DNA from: Anaerolineales bacterium | GTDB taxonomy: Bacteria; Chloroflexota; Anaerolineae; Anaerolineales; UBA4823 | Assembly: GCA_016935755.1 (NCBI GenBank) | Contig: JAFGQI010000079.1 | Span: 1 to 64,000, forward strand | Length of the DNA stretch: 64,000 bases | Direction: 5' to 3' | Shown: positions 591 to 12,154 of the stretch, piece after piece | Layout: the number at the start of each line of letters is the position of its first letter | How positions within the stretch are numbered: the stretch's first letter is position 1 | The notes under the pieces: generated by a model | Seen by the model: the letters and a program-made list of their open reading frames with translations, nothing else | What the model was told of the DNA's origin: nothing | Database searches by the model: none | Position numbers and translations under genes: made by a program

Positions 591-3500
591 TTACAAAGGC
601 CGCACACCCACCAGCATGGCGTACACAATCAGCCGCTTGGTGTAAAGGCGGAATTCGGGGTCCCAGCCCGTGCAGGTGATCAGGGTGATCTTGGGACTTT
701 CGCTCGGAGCGATCACGCTCAGGTCGGATTCTTCCACCACGACCGAACCGCTCACCTGGTAGATATACTGGCTTTTCTCGGTGTATACCGTCACCTCATC
801 GCCGGTTTTTAGCTGGTCCAGGCGGCGGAAAGGCCCATCGGAACCATCTGCCAGGTCGACATGCCCGGCCAGGCCGGTGTTGCCGCCCAATCCGGGCCAG
901 GAGGTATCCCCCATCCAGGCAATTTCATACTTCAGCCCGCCAATCAGCCAGGTGCCTTTCTCGCGCGGCACATACTTAACCACATTATCCACCCCCAGAG
1001 TCGGGATGACCAGGCGGGTGACCGCGCTGGCATCGGTCGGGAAGCCCATCGGGCCTACCGTAGGGAGCAGGGCGGGCGTGGGGATGGGGAAGTCCGGCAG
1101 AGCCGTCGGGGTTGGCGTGTAGGTGGGCGCGACCCATTCTTCGATGACCTCCACCACCGTGGCGATGGCGATCTCTTCGCCGGGCCCCGGCGTGGCGCTG
1201 GGCTGGACGGGCAGGCCCGCCAGGGTAGCAGTCGGGGAGACTTTAGCCGGGCCGGTGCGCTGCAGGGCGGACAGCTCATCGGGGGGCGTCTCCTGCCCCG
1301 GCGGCGCGCCCGGTCCCATCGTCGAGCAGGCCAGGCTGGCGCTGACCAGCACCAGCGCTAATCCAAGCAGGACCAGCCAGGTGGCGCGGTGCGAGCGCAG
1401 CTTTCTCCAGGCGCCAAAAGCCGCTCCCAGCAGGCCCAACGCGGCCAGCAAGATCACCGGGAGGGCGGTCTGCCAGTTCACCGGGGTGCTGTTTCCCGCA
1501 TCAAAGCCAGTGCCTGGCAGGGTGGAGGTGGCAATGATGCGGTATTTGACCTCGTTGGAGTTGAGCGACTGGTTGGTGTCCCAGGTCATGGTGGCGCGGT
1601 GGGCGTAGGTGGTTGAGGCGGTGACCGTGCTGTTGACCTTGGTCTTGATCTGGATGCTGGCCTCGGCGTTAGGCGCCATGCTGCCCAGGCTGGTGGTCAC
1701 CGTGCGCGTGCTGGAGTTGGTGGTGGCGGATCCGCGCGTGGTGATCACCTCGATGATATCCTGCACGCTGGGGAAGGTATCCGTGATTTTGACATTGGTC
1801 AGGGTGGTGGTGCCGCCGTTGCGCACATCAATGCGGAAGATGATGATATCGCCCATGATGGCTTTGTTGGGGTTGAGCCGCAGGTAGAGCTCCACGTCCA
1901 CCTCTGGCTCGACTACTACCGTATCTAGATCGGTGACGGTGTTGTTGCCGGTGTACGACTCAAACTGCCCGGTGCTGGTGTCCTTGGGCTTGACCAGCCG
2001 GATCGTGGCGGTGTTTTCCACCTCGTCACCATTGGCGGCGCTGGTGGAGACCTTGCCGCGCACTTTGAATGAGATGCTTTCGTCGGGCTCCAGGCGCGTG
2101 CCAATCTTCCAGACGATGGTTTGGGCTGTGGTTGTGGTCACCTGGGTCATGCTGAGCGTGCCCTGGCTGAGCACAACATCTGAGACATTGGCCGAAAAGG
2201 TGTCAATGAAGATGATGTTGGTGATGGTTTTGTACGGGCCAATGTTCTGGATGGAAACCGTATAGGTGTAGGTTCCTCCGGCGTAGACCGTGGTGCGGCT
2301 GTCGGTCTTGGTCAGCACCAGGTCGATGGCTGGCTTGATATACAGCTTGACCTCATCCGAGTAGCGCACCACGCTGGGGTACGAGGTGACCTTGGCTACA
2401 TTGAATATTTCTTTGATTTCGTCGAAGGTACTGTTGGGGCGCGTGTTGATGTGGATGGTCAGGGTGTAATGCGGGTTCAGGGTGCCGAAGCTGCGGCTGA
2501 AGTTGCGGCTGCTGGAATAGGGTCCAAAGCTGGTGACTGCTCCCAGGTTGGTCCTGATTTCATAGCTGTAATCGACCACATCCAGGGTGGGGGTGAAGGC
2601 GTCCGAGACCACCACGCTGCTGGCTGCCAGGTCGCTGTTGTTGTACACCACGATGGTGAAGGCGATCGGCTCGCCGACATAGTAGCACGGCTCAGGGTCA
2701 AACATCTCGCAGGTGCTGGTGGATGGTTCAAAGTTCTTGGTGATCTCCAGCCCGGTCACGATCACATCCGCGCTGGCTGTGTTGTTGCTGGGCTTCCAGT
2801 CGGAGGTGTTTGTGCTGGTGATAACAGCGGTGTTGGTGATTTTTCGCCCCAATGCAGTGTCCTTGGGTGAAGCTCTGAAAGTGATCTTAGCAGAATGATC
2901 TTTGGGTAAAAACCCAACAGTCCAAATCCCAGTTGTATGATCATATGAACCTTGTGTCGGATTTCCTGGTACCGGAATGACGGGATAATAATCCATATAG
3001 ATAGACAGATCTTCATCCACTGTAACGTTTACTGCATCTGAAGGTCCTGTGTTCGTGACCCACAGCGTATAATCAATAGTCTCACCAACATCAGGGTAGG
3101 AGTTGCTCACCGCTTTGGCGATCTGCAGATCAACGCTATCAATTACTGTATCGACCTTATCGACATTATTTGAAGGGTCGGCATCTTTGGTTAAGAGAAC
3201 CGCAGTGTTTGTAACAATAATATCTGGGATATCAGAGTCAATTCTTACCCCAACGATGATCGCCGGGAACGTCGTCAGGCTGGCAGGGATGGATTGGCTC
3301 CACACGCAGCTGACCAGGGTGGCTGTGCTGGTGCTGCAGTCCCAGGCGCCTGCTGTATCGGTGGCGTTAATGGTCGTAACAGTCATGCCGTCGGGAAGTT
3401 GGTCTTCCACCCGGGGAGACTCGGACACCGTTTCGGTGTTAGTTCGGGTGACATTGATCACATAGCGGTTGTTGGTGCCTACGGTGAAAATGGTTGGTAT

Positions 3501-3728
3501 CTGCGATTTTTTGATCGCCAGATCGAAACCTGGCGCAGCCAGCGGCTTGTTCACCGGCGCGGTCTTTGGCTCAGCCTCCGGCGCGGCCAGCGCGCCAAAC
3601 CAGGCGCCCAGCAGGGCCAGGCTCAGCGCCAGCGCCAGGGCTGCCAGCAGCAGGCGCGGCCCGCGGCGGGTGGGGGCGTTCTCGGGGGTGGGGGATATCT
3701 GTTCCAGGTTCATCGCAAGCTCTCCCAA
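591..3728 (-). CDS. DUF11-repeat surface protein fused to an LPGTG-type sorting motif and a C-terminal sortase domain
   Basis: Single ORF with repeated DUF11-like units ('VYAGGTYTYTVSIQNIGP', 'PDVGETIDYTLWVTNTGPSDA'), then 'LPGTGFDAG', TM, 'RKLRSHR', second TM ('WLVLLGLALVLVSASLAC'), a Pro/Thr-rich linker, then sortase signatures 'GLAGHVD', 'TLITCTGWD' (TLxTC) and downstream Arg 'RLYTKRLIVYA'. Confidence 0.9.
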   Translation of the reverse strand: MGELAMNLEQISPTPENAPTRRGPRLLLAALALALSLALLGAWFGALAAPEAEPKTAPVNKPLAAPGFDLAIKKSQIPTIFTVGTNNRYVINVTRTNTETVSESPRVEDQLPDGMTVTTINATDTAGAWDCSTSTATLVSCVWSQSIPASLTTFPAIIVGVRIDSDIPDIIVTNTAVLLTKDADPSNNVDKVDTVIDSVDLQIAKAVSNSYPDVGETIDYTLWVTNTGPSDAVNVTVDEDLSIYMDYYPVIPVPGNPTQGSYDHTTGIWTVGFLPKDHSAKITFRASPKDTALGRKITNTAVITSTNTSDWKPSNNTASADVIVTGLEITKNFEPSTSTCEMFDPEPCYYVGEPIAFTIVVYNNSDLAASSVVVSDAFTPTLDVVDYSYEIRTNLGAVTSFGPYSSSRNFSRSFGTLNPHYTLTIHINTRPNSTFDEIKEIFNVAKVTSYPSVVRYSDEVKLYIKPAIDLVLTKTDSRTTVYAGGTYTYTVSIQNIGPYKTITNIIFIDTFSANVSDVVLSQGTLSMTQVTTTTAQTIVWKIGTRLEPDESISFKVRGKVSTSAANGDEVENTATIRLVKPKDTSTGQFESYTGNNTVTDLDTVVVEPEVDVELYLRLNPNKAIMGDIIIFRIDVRNGGTTTLTNVKITDTFPSVQDIIEVITTRGSATTNSSTRTVTTSLGSMAPNAEASIQIKTKVNSTVTASTTYAHRATMTWDTNQSLNSNEVKYRIIATSTLPGTGFDAGNSTPVNWQTALPVILLAALGLLGAAFGAWRKLRSHRATWLVLLGLALVLVSASLACSTMGPGAPPGQETPPDELSALQRTGPAKVSPTATLAGLPVQPSATPGPGEEIAIATVVEVIEEWVAPTYTPTPTALPDFPIPTPALLPTVGPMGFPTDASAVTRLVIPTLGVDNVVKYVPREKGTWLIGGLKYEIAWMGDTSWPGLGGNTGLAGHVDLADGSDGPFRRLDQLKTGDEVTVYTEKSQYIYQVSGSVVVEESDLSVIAPSESPKITLITCTGWDPEFRLYTKRLIVYAMLVGVRPL

Positions 3729-4007: not shown

Positions 4008-4013
4008 TATAAT
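4008..4013 (+). promoter_or_regulatory. Candidate -10 (TATAAT) for the PqqD/rSAM cassette
   Basis: Consensus TATAAT about 34 nt before the PqqD start codon; no well-spaced -35 is obvious. Confidence 0.4.
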
Positions 4014-4046: not shown

Positions 4047-4340
4047 ATGTCCGTCAATCTTGAACAGCGCTATCAGAAAAGCCCCTCCATCGTCTCCCGC
4101 AAAGTCGCCGGGGAGATGATCCTGGTGCCGATCCGCTCGAATGTGGGCGATCTGGAGAGCATCTATACCCTCAACGACACCGGCGCTTCTGCCTGGGAGC
4201 TGTTCGATGGCCAGCGCAGCCTGGGGCAGGTGTGCGAGGCGATCGCGGCCGAGTACGAGGTCGAACTGGAGCAAGCCCAGCGCGACCTGCTCGAACTGGC
4301 GGAGCAGCTGGTCAGCGTGCAGGCTCTGGAGGAGGTCTAG
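4047..4340 (+). CDS. PqqD family protein (RiPP recognition element-like)
   Basis: 97 aa; 'IYTLNDTGASAWELFDGQRSLGQVCEAIAAEYEV' matches the PqqD-family pattern (LN.TG..iW.l.dG..t...i). Confidence 0.88.
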   Translation: MSVNLEQRYQKSPSIVSRKVAGEMILVPIRSNVGDLESIYTLNDTGASAWELFDGQRSLGQVCEAIAAEYEVELEQAQRDLLELAEQLVSVQALEEV

Positions 4341-4341
4341 G

Positions 4342-5469
4342 GTGGACTGCCCATACGTCCCCAGCATCGAATATGGCGATTTCAGCCTGCGGCTGCACGA
4401 GAAAGCCGGTACGCAGCGCATCCCGCTGATCGGCTCGCTCGAGCTGGGCTACCGCTGCAACCTGCGCTGCCAGCACTGCTATGTGGCCCACGCTCACACT
4501 GGCCTGCCCGGCCGGCAGGAGCTGACTGCTGCTGAAATTCAGCGCATCCTGGATGAAGTGGTGGACGAGGGCTGCCTGTGGTTCCTGCTCACCGGCGGCG
4601 AGCCGCTGCTGCGCCGGGATTTCCCCGAGATCTACCTGTACGCCAAGCGCAAAGGCCTGCTGCTCAACCTGTTCACCAACGGCACCCTGCTGACCCCCCA
4701 GCTGGCCGACCTGCTGGCGGAATGGCGCCCGTTCAACATCGAAATTACCCTGTACGGCGCTACCCAGGAAACTTACGAGCGGGTCACCGGCATCCCCGGC
4801 TCGCACGCCCACGCGATGCGCGGGATCGAACTGCTGCTGGAGCGCAATCTGCCGCTCAAGCTGAAAACCATGCTGATGACGCTAAACATCCACGAGCTGG
4901 AGGCGATGAAAGCCTTCACCCGGAATTTAGGGCTGGATTTCCGCTACGATGCCATGCTGCACGCCAGGTTGGATGGCTCGCACAAGCCGCACGAACTGCG
5001 CCTTTCGCCCCAACAAGTGGTACAATTGGATGTTGAGGACCCGGAGCGCATGCGCTCCTGGCACGAGTTCTGTGATCTATTTGTAGCGCCGCCGCCCGAT
5101 ACTCCATATCTGTATCGCTGTGGAGCGGGGATTAAATCTTTTCATATCGACCCTTATGGGCAGCTCAGCCTGTGCATCACTTCTCGTGAACCTTCCTACG
5201 ATCTACGTCAGGGATCGTTCCATGAAGGCTGGGTGGATTTTCTGTACCAGGCGCGCTACGAACCGCTGGGCGAGTCGTACGCCTGCGCAGAGTGTGCGTT
5301 AAAATCATTGTGCGGGCAGTGCCCCGGGCTGGCCCGATTAGAAGCCGGCGATCCTAAGGCGAAGTTAGAGTATCACTGCCAGGTAGCTCACCTGCGCGCC
5401 AGGGCCTTTGGCATTGCTGAAGAACTGATGATGGAGAACCAACCGCTGGACCGGTTGGAGGTTGGATAA
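4342..5469 (+). CDS. Radical SAM/SPASM domain peptide maturase
   Basis: 'CNLRCQHCYV' (CxxxCxxC), 'LTGGEPLLRRDF', C-terminal SPASM-like Cys cluster 'C..CALKSLCGQCPG'. The tracked ORF begins earlier (4141), but that part overlaps PqqD out of frame; GTG 4342 follows the PqqD stop. Confidence 0.92.
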   Translation: MDCPYVPSIEYGDFSLRLHEKAGTQRIPLIGSLELGYRCNLRCQHCYVAHAHTGLPGRQELTAAEIQRILDEVVDEGCLWFLLTGGEPLLRRDFPEIYLYAKRKGLLLNLFTNGTLLTPQLADLLAEWRPFNIEITLYGATQETYERVTGIPGSHAHAMRGIELLLERNLPLKLKTMLMTLNIHELEAMKAFTRNLGLDFRYDAMLHARLDGSHKPHELRLSPQQVVQLDVEDPERMRSWHEFCDLFVAPPPDTPYLYRCGAGIKSFHIDPYGQLSLCITSREPSYDLRQGSFHEGWVDFLYQARYEPLGESYACAECALKSLCGQCPGLARLEAGDPKAKLEYHCQVAHLRARAFGIAEELMMENQPLDRLEVG

Positions 5470-5482
5470 GGAGAGGAAAATT

Positions 5483-5677
5483 ATGAACCCCATGATATCT
5501 TCCAAAGGTAGTACAGCGGTTGCCCGCAAACCCTACCAGAAGCCGCGGCTGGAGCAGGTGCGCCTGGTGCCAGGGCAGGCAGTATTGGAAATTTGTAAAA
5601 ATCCAATTCAAGCGGGTCCGGGTTTTCTTTCCAATTGTGGACCTGTTGGCGCTGAATGTGAGAGCGCACTTAGCTGA
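5483..5677 (+). CDS. Small precursor-like peptide (putative RiPP substrate)
   Basis: ATG 5483 preceded by AAGGAGAGG; 64 aa MNPMISSKGSTAVARKPYQKPRLEQVRLVPGQAVLEICKNPIQAGPGFLSNCGPVGAECESALS. Charged 'KPYQKPRLEQV' leader segment, three Cys all in the C-terminal part, directly after the rSAM gene. Confidence 0.75.
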   Translation: MNPMISSKGSTAVARKPYQKPRLEQVRLVPGQAVLEICKNPIQAGPGFLSNCGPVGAECESALS

Positions 5678-5701
5678 ACGGCAATCAGTTTTATTATTTC
5701 T

Positions 5702-6589
5702 GTGGTAGAGGCATCAAACGACATCCGTGTAACCATCGGGGAAATTGTATTCTCTTTTTATCCAAGCGTCCTAATCGATCCTAACACGGTGCAGCAAACA
5801 TACCGGGATTTCCAGACCCGGGAAGCGGCGCAGGTTCTTTTTAATATTCAAAGAGGCAATTCTCCTGGTTGGCAGGATGGTGAGCTGGTTTTTGATTCGC
5901 ACGGCGCCTGGCGCCTTTGGCGAAATCCTATGGGTTGGATTATCGAGCTTCGATCACCTTCGCCCACGCGGGCGCCATACCAGATCGTCACCCTGGATCA
6001 TGAGTTCAAGCAGGGCCGTATCCACCTCATAGGTGATGAAACCCAAGCTCGTTTTTTTAATTTTGAAGATATCTTAATGGAACTGCTGACGGTGCTGCTG
6101 CTCTCGCCGCGGCGGGGCCTTCTTCTGCACGCCTGCGCAGCCAGCCAAGAGGGAACCGGCTGGGTGTTCGCCGGGCAATCCGGGGCAGGTAAGAGCACCA
6201 TGGCGCGTCTGTGGCGGGAGGCGCCCCAGGTGAATTTGTTGAGCGATGAGCGGGTGATCCTGCGCCAGGTGCAGGGTGAATTCCGGGCTTATGGCACGCC
6301 CTGGTACAGCGATGCCCGGGCCGCCTCTCCCGAATCGGCCCGGCTGGAAGGCATCTTCCTGCTCAGGCACGGCGCACAAAACACTGCTCGTCAACTCGAG
6401 CCTGCCGAAGCGGTCACCAGGCTGCTGGCCTGCTCCTTTCCTCCATATTGGGATGCTCAAGGGATGGAGAACGCGCTGGGATTCCTGGGTGAGCTGTGCC
6501 AGTCTGTGCCCTGCTATGAGCTGGGCTTCCTGCCTCAGCCAGAAGTGGTCAATTACATCCGTGAGAAACAATGGACTCGATGCTCTTAG
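5702..6589 (+). CDS. HprK-related kinase
   Basis: GTG start; Walker A 'GWVFAGQSGAGKSTMARLW', followed by 'LLSDERVILR'; HPr-kinase-like C-terminal layout without the usual N-terminal HprK domain. Confidence 0.8.
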   Translation: MVEASNDIRVTIGEIVFSFYPSVLIDPNTVQQTYRDFQTREAAQVLFNIQRGNSPGWQDGELVFDSHGAWRLWRNPMGWIIELRSPSPTRAPYQIVTLDHEFKQGRIHLIGDETQARFFNFEDILMELLTVLLLSPRRGLLLHACAASQEGTGWVFAGQSGAGKSTMARLWREAPQVNLLSDERVILRQVQGEFRAYGTPWYSDARAASPESARLEGIFLLRHGAQNTARQLEPAEAVTRLLACSFPPYWDAQGMENALGFLGELCQSVPCYELGFLPQPEVVNYIREKQWTRCS

Positions 6590-7008
6590 AATCGCCTGAA
6601 ATGGTCTCTCTGGCCGAGGAAATTCTGGGTGGAGGGCATACCCTGCGCTTTCGCGCCCCGGGGCAGAGCATGCACCCGCTGATCCAGGACGGCGACATCC
6701 TGGAGGTGCAGCCCTGGAACGGCGAGGCTTTGCAGCGCGGCCAGGTGATCCTGTATCGCAGCGCTGGAAATCGATTGGTCGCTCACCGCGTGGTGGATAT
6801 GAGGCAAGATGAACAGGGCGAAATCATTTTTACAGGCGGCTACCAGGCTCGCTCGACCGGGCTCCAACCGGTGCGGCCAAAGCAGGTGCTGGGGAAGGTG
6901 GTTCGAATAGAACGCAATGGGCGTACGCGGCGGGTCAACAGCGCCAGTCACCGCATTTTCTCCGCTCTGTGGGCGCTGCTGGCCAAGACCCGGTCTCGGT
7001 TTTTGTAA
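6571..7008 (+). CDS. S24/S26 family (signal-peptidase-like) peptidase
   Basis: 'FRAPGQSMHPLIQDGDILEVQP' (Ser motif) and 'LVAHRVVD'; overlaps the upstream gene by 19 nt. Confidence 0.8.
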   Translation: MDSMLLESPEMVSLAEEILGGGHTLRFRAPGQSMHPLIQDGDILEVQPWNGEALQRGQVILYRSAGNRLVAHRVVDMRQDEQGEIIFTGGYQARSTGLQPVRPKQVLGKVVRIERNGRTRRVNSASHRIFSALWALLAKTRSRFL

Positions 7009-7093
7009 GCCAATTGAAAAGCCCATGCGGGGCAGGTTGTGTTATAAACGGAGAGTATCTCGCAGATCTTTTGGGAACGGTGGAGGTAATCCT

Positions 7094-10000
7094 ATGAAAT
7101 TGATCAAATTTTTTCTACCTATTGTGATCGCTCTTGGCCTGGTGTGGTGGGGAGCTCAGGCTGCCCAGGCAGGACAAACTCCGGCTGGTGATATGAGCCC
7201 TGAGAATGGGATCGTTTCATTTGACCTGGTTGACCCGGACGAAGCGGTCCAGCTGGTGCAGTCGGATCGTGAAAATATCACCCTGGAGCTGCGCCTGCCG
7301 GAGTTTCGCTTTGAGCCGGGATCGGCGGATGGTAGAGCCTGCCAGAAGCTGGTGGTGGATGGTTTCCCCTGGACGGACCAGGCCGGGCAGCCTATGCTGC
7401 CGGTGCATGGAGCTATGCTGGGCGTCCCGCTCGAAAGCGAACCGCAGTTGACTGTGCTGCAAGCTGTTCCTGTGCGGTTAGAAGGGCGCTATGACCTGTG
7501 CCCGCTGGGCCAGCCGGTATACGAGCGGGATGATGATGGTCGCCCGATCTACCAGGGCGAAATTTTCCAGCGTGATCCAGCGGCGTACTCCCAGGATTCC
7601 TTTTCTCCATTGTCCCCCGCCGAAGTGACCCTGACCGGTATGCTGCGCAGCCAGCAAGTAGCTCTGGTGCGCTTCCAGCCCTTCCAGTACAACCCGGTCA
7701 CGGGGGAGCTGCGCTACTTCCGCACCATCCGTGTGCGCCTGGATCTGAACGGTGTTGAGCACCGCGCTGGCATATCGGATGGCTCAATCGTTGATGAAGG
7801 GCCCTTCGAACAGACGCTCAGCCAGGCGCTGTTAAATTATGACACAGCCCGAGATTGGCGCAGGGTTGAGTCTGCCTCGGTGGTCCATTCGGCAAGTAAA
7901 GTGATGGCTGATCCAAGCTATATGATCAAGGTGAACCAGACAGGGATTTACCAGGTTGGCTACGCTGATCTGGTCGCGGCGGGCATTGATCCTGCGACCA
8001 TCGTCACAGGCACCCTGCAGCTCTTCAATCAAGGCAATGAAGCTGCTTTGCTGTGGCTTGGCGATAGCGATGCAGATTTTGAAGCCGGCGAGAGCTTCCT
8101 GTTTTATGGACAAAGCCTGGATCTCAAGTACACCAATGTGAATGCGTATTATCTCACCTGGGGGATCACGAATGGAAAGCGGATGGCGGCTCTGGATGGC
8201 ACATTGAGCGGCTCGGCGGTTGTCCCGGCAGCTTTCCTGAATGTTCAACATGCTGAATCGAACTTCCGCTATGTGTCGGATGCCCCCAATGGCCCCCAGA
8301 AGGATGTCTGGTTTTGGAACAATGTGCGTGCGCTCAGCGCGCCAGCCTCCAGGGAATTTATCACCAGCCTGGCGAATATCTCTAATTCTTCATCTCTGAC
8401 TGCGACGGTAGAAGTGATGATTAAAGGCTATTCGGCGACTTCCACCAATCCAGCCATCCCGGCTTACCAGCATTCGCGCGTATATATCAATAACTTTTCG
8501 ATTGATGACAGTGACGGCTGGGCGCCCACCGCCGATCTATGGTTCACCGCCACGATCTCGCAAACGAAACTGGTGAACGGCAACAATGCCCTCAAGGTTG
8601 AACTGCCGCGGGATGGTACGATTGCCACGAATTACGTCTTTTTCAACTGGTACGAGTTGAAGTATTGGGATACCTATGTTGCCGACAGCGACCCCTTCAT
8701 CTTCGCTGGCGAACTGGATGGCTCGCCCACCACCTGGGAATATCGGGTCACCAAGCTGGCTACGGATCAGCTTGAAGCCTTTGTGATCACCGACCCGCTT
8801 GACCCGCAGGTGGTGACCAATGCCAGCATCGATCTGCTGGGGGATGGCTACCGCTACCGCTTCGAGCACAGCTTTTCCGAACGGCAAGAATATCTGCTGC
8901 AGTCGGTCAGCAAGCGCTTGAAACCGCTGGCGATCGTAGAAGATACTCCCTCAGATCTGAAGGCAACTACCAATAAGGCAAGCTATATCATCATCACCCA
9001 CGGAGATTTTTACACCGCCACGGAACTCCTGGCTGCTTACCGTGATTCTCCGGACTTTCCCGTCATGCGCGTGGATGTGCAGGACATTTACGACGAGTTC
9101 AACCATGGGGTTGTGGATGTGCAGGCGATCCATGATTTCCTGAAACATACCTATGATAACTGGCAGAAGCCAGCGCCTTCCTATGTGCTGCTGGTGGGGG
9201 ATGGTCATTTCGATCCCCGAGACTATTATCTGGTAGGCGAACCCAACTATATCCCGGCGTATCTCGAACAGGTGGATCCTTTCCTGGGGGAGACAGCCAC
9301 CGACAACCGCTTCGTGACGGTCAGCGGGAGTGATGTCCTGCCGGATATGCATATCGGGCGCTTCCCGGTTCAGACCGCTCAGCAAACCACCGATATGATC
9401 AACAAGGTGTTGGCTTATGAAGGCACCCCGGTGGAGACGGGCTGGAATCGGGCAGTGGCTTTTATCGCCGATGACCCGGACGATGCAGGAAATTTCCGCA
9501 TCTATTCCAATGACATAGCCGATTATTACATGGCTGGCTACGATGTGCAGAAGATTTATTATGGAGTGCCTGGCGATCCAGATGCCACCCATACCAGCCA
9601 GGCTGCTGCTCAGGCGGCTATCCTGGCTGCTATCAACAATGGCGCCTTCATTATTCACTATAATGGGCATGCTTCTATCCACGATTGGGCCTCGCCCGTG
9701 CTGTTCTCGAAGAACGATATACCTTCCCTGACCAACATTGGCAAACTGCCTTTCTGGACTCCAATGACCTGCCTGGAGGGTTCGTTTGACTATCCCAGCC
9801 CGCCAGGGATCAACAACTCTTCCCTATCAGAAATGCTGGTGCGCGAGGCGAGTAAGGGCGCTATCGCCAGCTTTGCCCCGACTGGCCTGGGTGTGGCCTC
9901 CGGTCATGAATACCTGGATCATGGTCTGTTCAAAGCGCTGTTCATGCAGGGCGCCAGCCAGGTTGGACCAGCGACCACGGCTTCCAAGCTCTACCTGGCA

Positions 10001-10120
10001 GCCAAATCGGGCGGAGGGCATCTGGATTTGCTGGATACCTATCTGGTGCTGGGTGATCCCGCGGTCAGGCTGCATAAATTGAACGTTTATTACTTGCTCA
10101 GGATTTTGAAGTTCTGGTAG
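7094..10120 (+). CDS. Secreted C25-family (gingipain-type) cysteine peptidase
   Basis: ATG 7094 with GGTGGAGGT upstream; signal peptide 'MKLIKFFLPIVIALGLVWWGAQAAQA'; catalytic-type motifs 'IIHYNGHASIHDWA' (His) and 'FWTPMTCLEGSFDYP' (Cys). The tracked ORF start (6917) overlaps the peptidase gene and is unlikely. Confidence 0.85.
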   Translation: MKLIKFFLPIVIALGLVWWGAQAAQAGQTPAGDMSPENGIVSFDLVDPDEAVQLVQSDRENITLELRLPEFRFEPGSADGRACQKLVVDGFPWTDQAGQPMLPVHGAMLGVPLESEPQLTVLQAVPVRLEGRYDLCPLGQPVYERDDDGRPIYQGEIFQRDPAAYSQDSFSPLSPAEVTLTGMLRSQQVALVRFQPFQYNPVTGELRYFRTIRVRLDLNGVEHRAGISDGSIVDEGPFEQTLSQALLNYDTARDWRRVESASVVHSASKVMADPSYMIKVNQTGIYQVGYADLVAAGIDPATIVTGTLQLFNQGNEAALLWLGDSDADFEAGESFLFYGQSLDLKYTNVNAYYLTWGITNGKRMAALDGTLSGSAVVPAAFLNVQHAESNFRYVSDAPNGPQKDVWFWNNVRALSAPASREFITSLANISNSSSLTATVEVMIKGYSATSTNPAIPAYQHSRVYINNFSIDDSDGWAPTADLWFTATISQTKLVNGNNALKVELPRDGTIATNYVFFNWYELKYWDTYVADSDPFIFAGELDGSPTTWEYRVTKLATDQLEAFVITDPLDPQVVTNASIDLLGDGYRYRFEHSFSERQEYLLQSVSKRLKPLAIVEDTPSDLKATTNKASYIIITHGDFYTATELLAAYRDSPDFPVMRVDVQDIYDEFNHGVVDVQAIHDFLKHTYDNWQKPAPSYVLLVGDGHFDPRDYYLVGEPNYIPAYLEQVDPFLGETATDNRFVTVSGSDVLPDMHIGRFPVQTAQQTTDMINKVLAYEGTPVETGWNRAVAFIADDPDDAGNFRIYSNDIADYYMAGYDVQKIYYGVPGDPDATHTSQAAAQAAILAAINNGAFIIHYNGHASIHDWASPVLFSKNDIPSLTNIGKLPFWTPMTCLEGSFDYPSPPGINNSSLSEMLVREASKGAIASFAPTGLGVASGHEYLDHGLFKALFMQGASQVGPATTASKLYLAAKSGGGHLDLLDTYLVLGDPAVRLHKLNVYYLLRILKFW

Positions 10121-10126
10121 TAAATC

Positions 10127-10157
10127 AAGAGCGGGTGCGCCAGCCCCCGCTCTTTTT
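10127..10157. terminator. Bidirectional rho-independent terminator between convergent C25 and selB genes
   Basis: AAGAGCGGG...CCCGCTCTT followed by TTT on the + strand. Confidence 0.75.
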
Positions 10158-12090
10158 ATATTTTCAGCCGGCGGACATCTCCATCGCGGATAGTCACGCC
10201 GATTGCGTCCAGATGTTCGAGCAAAGCCAGGATATAGCGGCGGCTGGTGTTGAAATGGTCGCGCACCTGGGCCACGCTCAGTGTGCCCTGCTGCTGCATC
10301 AGGCGGCGCACATCTGCCAGCATATGCTCGTAATCTTCTTTACGAAAGACCACATCCGGCGCTACCGCCACCAGGTGGTCCAATTCCAACGTGGCAGCTG
10401 CCAGTTCCTCGCTGCCCAGTTCCTCCTGGCATTCCTTGTATGAGGGAGGTGCGTAGGGGGCGGCTGCAAAGCGTTTCAGCAGTCTGTCCAGGCTGTTCTG
10501 CTGCTGAGGGGTGAGCTGGATGGTATGCCCGGAGCGCAAGACAAGCGGGCCATTCTCCTGCACCTCTCCGCTGGCGACCAGCTGGCGCAAAGCAGCGTTG
10601 AACAGGCGCGGCGAGAAACGGGTGAACTCTTTTAAGCGGCTCTTCAGTTCTTCCCGAGAAATGCCGCGCCGCAGAGGGTAAGCGCGGTGGTAGCTTTCTA
10701 CTTCATGCAGCATACGAGCTGAGATTTGTTCCCACAGCCCTTTGCTGATCACCAGATCGTCTGGCGCAAAGGCCCCAGCGGATCGGGATGCGTCCCCCTC
10801 AAGGTTTAGCAGCTGTCCCAACTCGCCCAGCTCTTGCACGGCCTGGCGGGCATATTCTGCTTCCAGGTTCGAGCGAGCGATGATATCTTTCAGCGGAGCT
10901 GCGCCCAGGGCCAGTAGCGCCTGCAGCAGGATATCTCCGGGGGTGCCTTGCGAGAGAGCCGCCAGCCGCTCCAGAGTCGCTTGCGAGAAGCGCTTGTGTC
11001 GTCTATCAGGGTGGGGATCCACCACCTTGCCACCCCCCAGGGTTTCTCCTGGAGATGGACGGCGCAAGATGTAATGATCGCCGCGCACCGCGATGACTGG
11101 CTGGTTAAGTTCTAATTGCAGCCAGCCGCTCTCTCCGGGGAACAGTTCTTCACTGCCCAGCAGGCGCAGTCGGGCAACCACCTCTGCTGCGCCGATGAAC
11201 AGTTTCACCTCGGTGTTATGCTGCAGTGGCTGGATGATATCTGGCAGCAGACGAAAACGCACATCCAGGCGCTGGGTGGCGAGATAATCGCCGCTGTGCG
11301 CGACCACATCCCCGCGCGTTATCTGATCCAGCGATAAGCCGGAGATGTTCACTGCCGTCCGGCTGCCAGGCACAGCCACCTGTTCCTTCTGTTTATGGGT
11401 TTGCAGGCCGCGAATGCGCCCACGTAAGCCCTTGGGCAGGATTTCAATCTCTTCGCCTACTCGCAGGCTGCCGTCGCTGAGCGTTCCGGTGACCACGCTG
11501 CCGAAGCCAGCAATGGTGAAGGCGCGGTCGATGGGCAGTCGTGGACGGTTCAGGTCCGGTCGGGGCGGCCTCTCTGCCAGGACTGCGCCCAGGACAGATT
11601 TTAGCTCTGCCAGGCCTGCTCCTGTGCGGGCGGAGACTCGCACGATGGGAGCATTTTCCAGGACTGTACCTGCCAGAACCTGGCGCAGATCATTTTCCAC
11701 CAGTTCCAGCCAGTCGACATCATCGATCAGGTCTACCTTGGTCAGCGCTACCACCCCGCCCTGGATCTGCAGGATATCCAGGATCGCCAGATGCTCACGG
11801 GTTTGGGGCATCACGCCTTCATCGGCAGCCACCACAAACAGGGCTGCATCAATACCTCCTACTCCAGCAAGCATATTCTCAATGAAATCGCGGTGCCCTG
11901 GCACATCTACGATGCCCACCTCTTCTTCGTTCCCTTGTGGGGATGGCAGGCTCAACCAGGCAAAACCCAGGTCGATGGTCATCTCCCGCTCTTGCTCTTC
12001 CTTCAATCGGTCGGGATGGATGCCGGTCAGGGCTTCCACCAGGGTGGACTTGCCATGATCTACATGACCTGCGGTTCCAATTACACGCAT
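10156..12090 (-). CDS. selB: Selenocysteine-specific translation elongation factor SelB
   Basis: 'MRVIGTAGHVDHGKSTLVEALTGIHPDRLKEEQEREMTIDLGFA', 'DVPGHRDFIENMLAG', and C-terminal winged-helix-like region. Confidence 0.93.
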   Translation of the reverse strand: MRVIGTAGHVDHGKSTLVEALTGIHPDRLKEEQEREMTIDLGFAWLSLPSPQGNEEEVGIVDVPGHRDFIENMLAGVGGIDAALFVVAADEGVMPQTREHLAILDILQIQGGVVALTKVDLIDDVDWLELVENDLRQVLAGTVLENAPIVRVSARTGAGLAELKSVLGAVLAERPPRPDLNRPRLPIDRAFTIAGFGSVVTGTLSDGSLRVGEEIEILPKGLRGRIRGLQTHKQKEQVAVPGSRTAVNISGLSLDQITRGDVVAHSGDYLATQRLDVRFRLLPDIIQPLQHNTEVKLFIGAAEVVARLRLLGSEELFPGESGWLQLELNQPVIAVRGDHYILRRPSPGETLGGGKVVDPHPDRRHKRFSQATLERLAALSQGTPGDILLQALLALGAAPLKDIIARSNLEAEYARQAVQELGELGQLLNLEGDASRSAGAFAPDDLVISKGLWEQISARMLHEVESYHRAYPLRRGISREELKSRLKEFTRFSPRLFNAALRQLVASGEVQENGPLVLRSGHTIQLTPQQQNSLDRLLKRFAAAPYAPPSYKECQEELGSEELAAATLELDHLVAVAPDVVFRKEDYEHMLADVRRLMQQQGTLSVAQVRDHFNTSRRYILALLEHLDAIGVTIRDGDVRRLKI

Positions 12091-12154
12091 TTGTGATTCC
12101 CTCAGCCGGTGTAGGCTAACCTTACACTGTTTCTACAAACCATGACGGGCTATA

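Follow-up and report, generated by a model that had tools for sequence, protein, structure and literature searches.

A conserved gene cassette joining radical SAM/SPASM, HprK-like kinase and peptidase genes around a small cysteine-bearing peptide

Introduction

Discrete RiPP recognition elements (RREs) and HprK-like kinases occur together in known peptide pathways. The linear polyphosphorylated peptides (LPPs; Nat Commun 2026), described as restricted to Bacillota, employ an RRE, an HprK kinase and an archaeal-type signal peptidase but no radical SAM enzyme; the signal peptidase LppS is their demonstrated leader peptidase, with Ser, His and Asp all being essential (PMC13381572). In the phosphorylated lasso pathways (paeninodin, ThcoK/SyanK, pseudomycoidin, Bsf) HprK-like kinases phosphorylate the C-terminal Ser of the precursor (PMC8498205, PMC9266682), while BsfK, like LppK, acts on Ser3, assisted in the Bsf case by the RRE (PMC10368454, PMC13381572). 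The discrete RREs of both lasso and LPP pathways bind a YxxPx[LIV] motif (PMC10368454, PMC13381572).

SPASM sactipeptides and ranthipeptides of the SkfB and CteA type arise from Cys-containing precursors by way of a radical SAM/SPASM maturase, and no kinase, S26 peptidase or C25 peptidase described with them was found in the literature. PqqD and HprK-related kinases are further combined in the NCBIfam systems SynChlorMet and HPr-rel-A, the former also including radical SAM enzymes and a small peptide. A literature search, outside which subscription papers lay so that absence is no proof, returned no peptide pathway in which an HprK-like kinase, a radical SAM enzyme and PqqD are described together.

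Results

The window, a stretch of 64,000 nucleotides of contig JAFGQI010000079.1 from an Anaerolineales bacterium, harbors at positions 4047-10120 six tightly packed genes on the plus strand, as the first-pass annotation had reported. They encode a PqqD-like RRE of 97 residues (4047..4340; PF05402, E=1.2e-16), a radical SAM/SPASM peptide maturase of 375 residues (4342..5469, GTG start; PF04055, E=3.3e-24), a Cys-containing precursor peptide of 64 residues (5483..5677), an HprK/PEPCK-fold kinase of 295 residues identified by predicted fold and motif (5702..6589, GTG start), an S26 archaeal/ER-type signal-peptidase-like protein of 145 residues (6571..7008; TIGR02228, E=8e-13) and a secreted C25 cysteine peptidase of the gingipain/PorU type with its propeptide, 1008 residues in length (7094..10120; PF01364, E=3.7e-88, and PF08126, E=2.3e-15). 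The profile searches thus bear out the earlier family calls for PqqD, radical SAM and C25, the last matched together with its propeptide, while three gene starts needed small corrections: to GTG 4342 and GTG 5702 for the radical SAM enzyme and the kinase, and most likely to ATG 7094 instead of 6917 for the C25 peptidase, whose signal peptide begins there. Intergenic spacings are 1 nt between PqqD and radical SAM genes, 13 nt from there to the peptide gene, where an RBS-like AGGAGAGG precedes the latter, 24 nt between peptide and kinase genes and 85 nt between S26 and C25 genes; the kinase and S26 genes overlap by 19 nt.

The operon ends in a strong Rho-independent terminator on the plus strand (about 10127..10157; fold energy -20.6 kcal/mol, z -5.69, with a T run behind it), as had been proposed. 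The TATAAT hexamer likewise claimed for the operon exists 5' of PqqD (4008..4013, plus strand) and by its letters is a candidate -10 element; a consensus scan for sigma-70 promoters yielded no -35/-10-like pair at this site, and the promoter is therefore unproven. Upstream and divergent lies a gene (591-3728, minus strand) whose single polypeptide carries DUF11 repeats, LPGTG with a hydrophobic stretch and then, at the C-terminus, a sortase domain (PF04203), and a DUF11 giant is likewise found upstream of the cassette in locus L023.

In order to locate related cassettes, an alignment of seven radical SAM sequences was scanned against 84,980 species genomes. Close relatives carry the labels Aminicenantes, Nitrospirota, Omnitrophota, Aerophobetes, Vicinamibacteria, Elusimicrobia, Kiritimatiellota, Verrucomicrobia, Deltaproteobacteria and Chloroflexi, about ten phyla in which PqqD is encoded upstream and the kinase downstream of the homologous radical SAM gene, usually together with S26 and often with C25. 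Loci L030-L050 all show PqqD 5' and the kinase 3' of the radical SAM gene, save where the contig ends. The full order PqqD-radical SAM-peptide-kinase-S26-C25 recurs in L020, L022, L153, L163 and L174 and apparently also in L188 and L190-L195, where the locus end cuts the C25 match. Near 51 more distant radical SAM genes (L059-L109) kinase, S26 and C25 are all absent, and a single weak PqqD match was obtained. Within the window's class the distribution is patchy, with such an enzyme in 31 of 396 genomes, and in 5 of the 38 genomes of the window's family. Conservation of the neighborhood, on which the earlier reading depended, thus extends far beyond the window genome, and its recurrence across some ten phyla places the grouping of the six genes beyond chance. 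The cassette is genuine, widespread and apparently undescribed. Polysaccharide genes are frequent neighbors, as reported for LPPs; no dedicated exporter is encoded within the cassette.

The peptide of the window contains the leader motif YQKPRL, a Cys-Lys pair 21 residues after the Tyr, two further cysteines and a C-terminal Ser64. Nearly every locus encodes a relative of roughly 50-85 residues in the gap between radical SAM and kinase genes, or beside the kinase, so that the small ORF is indeed conserved next to homologous radical SAM genes. The relatives match no family in Pfam or NCBIfam and have a median pairwise identity of 31%, and their consensus reads [KR]-K-P-Y-x-K-P-x-[ILV]-x-x-[VI]-x-L-x-x-E-E-x-V-L-x-x-C-K ... 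C ... C ... G-S. When the 396 genomes of the class were searched with the peptide only, matches with E values of 2e-7 to 1e-2 were obtained in eight other genomes, the better ones being located within the same gene set. Weak matches L013 and L014, whose wider stretches (L025/L026) lack the cassette, and L016 and L017, with very weak scores, were treated as chance. Two tandem precursor peptides, both with a terminal Ser, lie between radical SAM and kinase genes in L189 and L035.

The C-terminal residue is Ser or Thr in all 26 peptides of the discovery set, compared with 15% Ser/Thr across the rest of the cores (the corresponding composition figure of 8e-22 ignores the relatedness of the peptides). 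It was likewise Ser or Thr in 6/6 loci of a first later set having the strict kinase motif [SN]DDR, and in all 12 peptides found beside DDR kinases in a second set drawn across the phylum, which, six loci being near-identical, counts as about five independent cases.

The kinase of the window has no Pfam match above cut-off and matches HprK-related profiles weakly. Its AlphaFold model, computed on 25 relatives (mean pLDDT 91.8), matches PEPCK and HprK (1ko7) in a fold search of the PDB, which is taken as decisive over a PDB sequence search with the kinase profile that had returned mainly P-loop ABC proteins. H143, the P-loop GQSGAGKST and D182-E183 form a motif that is invariant throughout the family except in L048, a Verrucomicrobia cassette in which the kinase (11240-12106) is apparently frameshifted in the assembly. 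The kinases retain the catalytic residues reported for BsfK, namely His, the Gly/Lys/Ser of the P-loop and an Asp pair, with Glu replacing the second Asp in the window.

The first later set broke a universal C-terminal Ser/Thr rule. Beside ten kinases with an LGED motif the peptide ends in Pro, Met, Gly, Val or Ala in six cases, in Thr in four and in Ser in none, and the peptides of the variant kinases L153 (NDEY) and L175 (GDER) end in Pro and Asn. LGED-associated peptides instead present C-x-[S/T]-[S/T] immediately following the conserved Cys (9/11, versus 1/30 of the others), and Cys-Lys occurs in none of these 11 but in 29/30 others. Kinase motif class thus tracks peptide class. In the kinase tree the LGED enzymes group as a single clade within the DDR kinases (support 97/93), so that the change of kinase motif and peptide class represents one evolutionary switch; read as many independent events, the covariation (Fisher p 0.001) is overstated. 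Two genomes, G357 (L023/L159) and G126 (L024/L152), each hold one cassette of either kinase class. Judging from these patterns and from the lasso kinases, the enzyme probably acts on the C-terminal Ser of the peptide. The former suggestion that the peptide might be phosphorylated or regulated by the kinase is thereby sharpened to phosphorylation of the peptide itself, most likely at its C-terminal Ser/Thr.

In the radical SAM enzyme the cysteines of CxxxCxxC and of the SPASM domain (C39, C43, C46, C260, C278, C315, C318, C324 and C327) are invariant among the seven sequences aligned. The best PDB sequence matches are SkfB, PqqE and 5wgg, the sactipeptide enzyme SkfB being the nearest solved relative. 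Given this relationship and the intact SPASM cysteines, a Cys-based modification is the likeliest chemistry. The PqqD-like protein scores best in NCBIfam against the lasso PqqD chaperone NF033536, at 29.9 bits under a cut-off of 80, and is predicted by analogy to bind the YxxPxL leader.

The S26 protein scores 48.5 bits against the archaeal signal peptidase TIGR02228, just under the cut-off of 51.85. Ser and His are kept in 20/20 relatives and Asp in 19/20, the exception being the window copy itself, in which GGYQ replaces GD; this copy may have decayed or may use another residue. At the family level S26 is the probable leader peptidase by analogy with LppS, while for the window copy this assignment is made with less confidence.

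The C25 peptidase resembles PorU (6za2) and the gingipains in the PDB, and 28/28 sequences retain the catalytic His and Cys. Radical SAM distances correlate with those of C25 (rho 0.68) and of the kinase (0.73), with 0/2000 permutations as high. Where the flank is long enough, most window-type cassettes have the C25 gene downstream, whereas in Kiritimatiellota, Verrucomicrobia and some Deltaproteobacteria it lies upstream of PqqD. Apart from the cassette's own gene, just two C25 genes of the window genome exceed the cut-off, both on other contigs. The tie between C25 and the cassette is therefore real. C25 is absent from the flanks of the cassettes in Aminicenantes, Aerophobetes and Omnitrophota (L032), which carry a PF14907-type nucleotidyltransferase, probably the Pfam kind of the pseudomycoidin protein PsmN. 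Because it is missing in several phyla, C25 stands outside the core chemistry. A role as Lys-specific cleaver of Cys-Lys was rejected, given that the pair occurs without C25 and is missing in many cassettes with C25. Divergent radical SAM cassettes (L171, L172, L173 and L051), ordered kinase-PqqD-radical SAM where complete, also adjoin C25 genes, two of them among L171-L173, so that the tie extends past the window's radical SAM clade.

Discussion

Among the known systems close to the cassette are the LPP clusters, with which it shares a discrete RRE, a YxxP leader, an HprK-like kinase and an archaeal-type signal peptidase (RRE, kinase and peptidase all being present in the window cluster), polysaccharide loci nearby and, in some relatives, the nucleotidyltransferase. 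PF14907 adjoins the cassette in several relatives, while in the window genome such genes lie on other contigs. LPP pathways differ, however, in having an MsbA-like exporter and phosphate on core Ser3 and in containing neither a radical SAM enzyme nor C25. Profile searches found neither an MsbA-like exporter nor an NTP transferase among the window's six genes, and the LPP leader motif YxxPxVLxHQxIxFETxxS is replaced by YxxPx[LIV] followed by VxLxxEExVLxxCK.

With the phosphorylated lasso pathways the cassette has in common a B1-type RRE, a YxxPxL leader, an HprK-like kinase, whose lasso counterparts target a C-terminal Ser (Ser3 in Bsf), and again the nucleotidyltransferase of some relatives. 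Neither an Asn-synthetase-like macrolactam cyclase (C) nor a transglutaminase-like B2 leader peptidase is among the six genes, their place being taken by a SPASM enzyme and a Cys-bearing core. The cassette thus appears to work like both pathways and belongs to neither. Membership of the HPr-rel-A or SynChlorMet-type cassettes, which the first-pass annotation mentioned, is not supported, since curated cut-offs are missed by a wide margin (HprK-related kinase A 27.4 versus 200 bits; ScmC 30.5 versus 125, ScmD 15.7 versus 100 and ScmE/F 81.9/72.3 versus 400 bits). Those of the PQQ and mycofactocin systems are missed as well, and although the C25 peptidase shares catalytic domain, propeptide and catalytic His and Cys with PorU, it has no demonstrated tie to type IX secretion and scores 265.7 bits against a cut-off of 420 for the T9SS sortase.

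The cassette is very probably a RiPP biosynthetic one; of the modified-peptide reading proposed earlier, the conserved gene set and the retained peptide stand. In the proposed pathway the PqqD protein would bind the YxxPxL motif in the leader of the 64-residue precursor and present the precursor for modification. The radical SAM/SPASM enzyme would then act on the Cys-bearing core, most likely by introducing thioether bridges or related Cys cross-links; Ser64 would be phosphorylated by the HprK-fold kinase, and the S26 enzyme would cleave off the leader. The secreted C25 peptidase would work extracellularly, either on the exported product or together with it on another target. As for the earlier idea that both proteases process the peptide, S26 most likely removes the leader, in keeping with the lasso and LPP pathways, but processing by C25 is unproven and some cassettes lack it. 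The analysis establishes the gene set, its conservation and co-inheritance, the motifs and the folds, from which the individual reactions, their order, export and the product are inferred. The pathway as a whole is considered probable, even though in the window the S26 copy is devoid of the Asp that LppS requires and the kinase carries DE in place of DD. On the best reading, a single peptide is both SPASM-modified and phosphorylated at its C-terminus.

The C-terminal Ser/Thr might alternatively be a recognition tail for sorting or cleavage by C25, the kinase acting on something else, for instance as a regulator. PorU recognizes the C-termini of proteins, and C25 shares the operon of the radical SAM enzyme and is inherited together with it. 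Yet peptides of Aminicenantes, Aerophobetes and Omnitrophota end in Ser/Thr although their flanks lack C25, LGED-kinase cassettes have C25 and mostly no C-terminal Ser/Thr, and in L019, where PqqD, radical SAM enzyme and C25 are present while the flank lacks a kinase, the peptide ends in Ala; such a tail is quite improbable. An LPP pathway with the radical SAM enzyme as an optional extra and phosphate near the core N-terminus would account for the shared RRE, kinase and signal peptidase and for PF14907 in relatives, and the LppK target Ser3 and the C-x-[S/T]-[S/T] of the LGED-associated (type II) peptides agree with it. This too is unlikely: the radical SAM enzyme is the most constant partner, LPP leader motif and exporter are both missing, and peptides of the window's class have their conserved Ser at the C-terminus, while the residues after Cys-Lys vary. 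A precursor of a small redox cofactor resembling PQQ or mycofactocin, whose pathways are laid out as PqqD, SPASM enzyme and small peptide, would fit the mycofactocin radical SAM family among the top matches of the window enzyme, but is hardly to be expected with a variable core in which Tyr, Glu or Val-Tyr are not conserved, with two cassette types in several genomes (L023/L159, L024/L152) and with equivalog cut-offs widely missed.

If modification and phosphorylation do meet on one peptide, the cassette joins radical SAM/SPASM chemistry with HprK-type peptide phosphorylation, which we found described only apart, and the logic of RRE, HprK and archaeal-type signal peptidase would extend from Bacillota to about ten mostly uncultured phyla. 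The phosphorylated residue would be predictable from sequence, and a recurrent association between such peptides and gingipain/PorU-type peptidases comes into view. That these cassettes make up one RiPP class across the ten or so phyla, in which one peptide combines a Cys core modified by the SPASM enzyme with (poly)phosphorylation of the C-terminal Ser, with a phosphosite switch to an internal C-x-[S/T]-[S/T] linked to the active-site type of the kinase and a dedicated secreted C25 partner, is put forward tentatively and falls a little short of probable.

The window genome contains a second peptide-modification locus, which looks SynChlorMet-like (L027, contig C172, 6190-11064) and comprises PqqD, two radical SAM genes, an 88-residue peptide ending in Tyr, an HprK-like kinase and an S26 protein.
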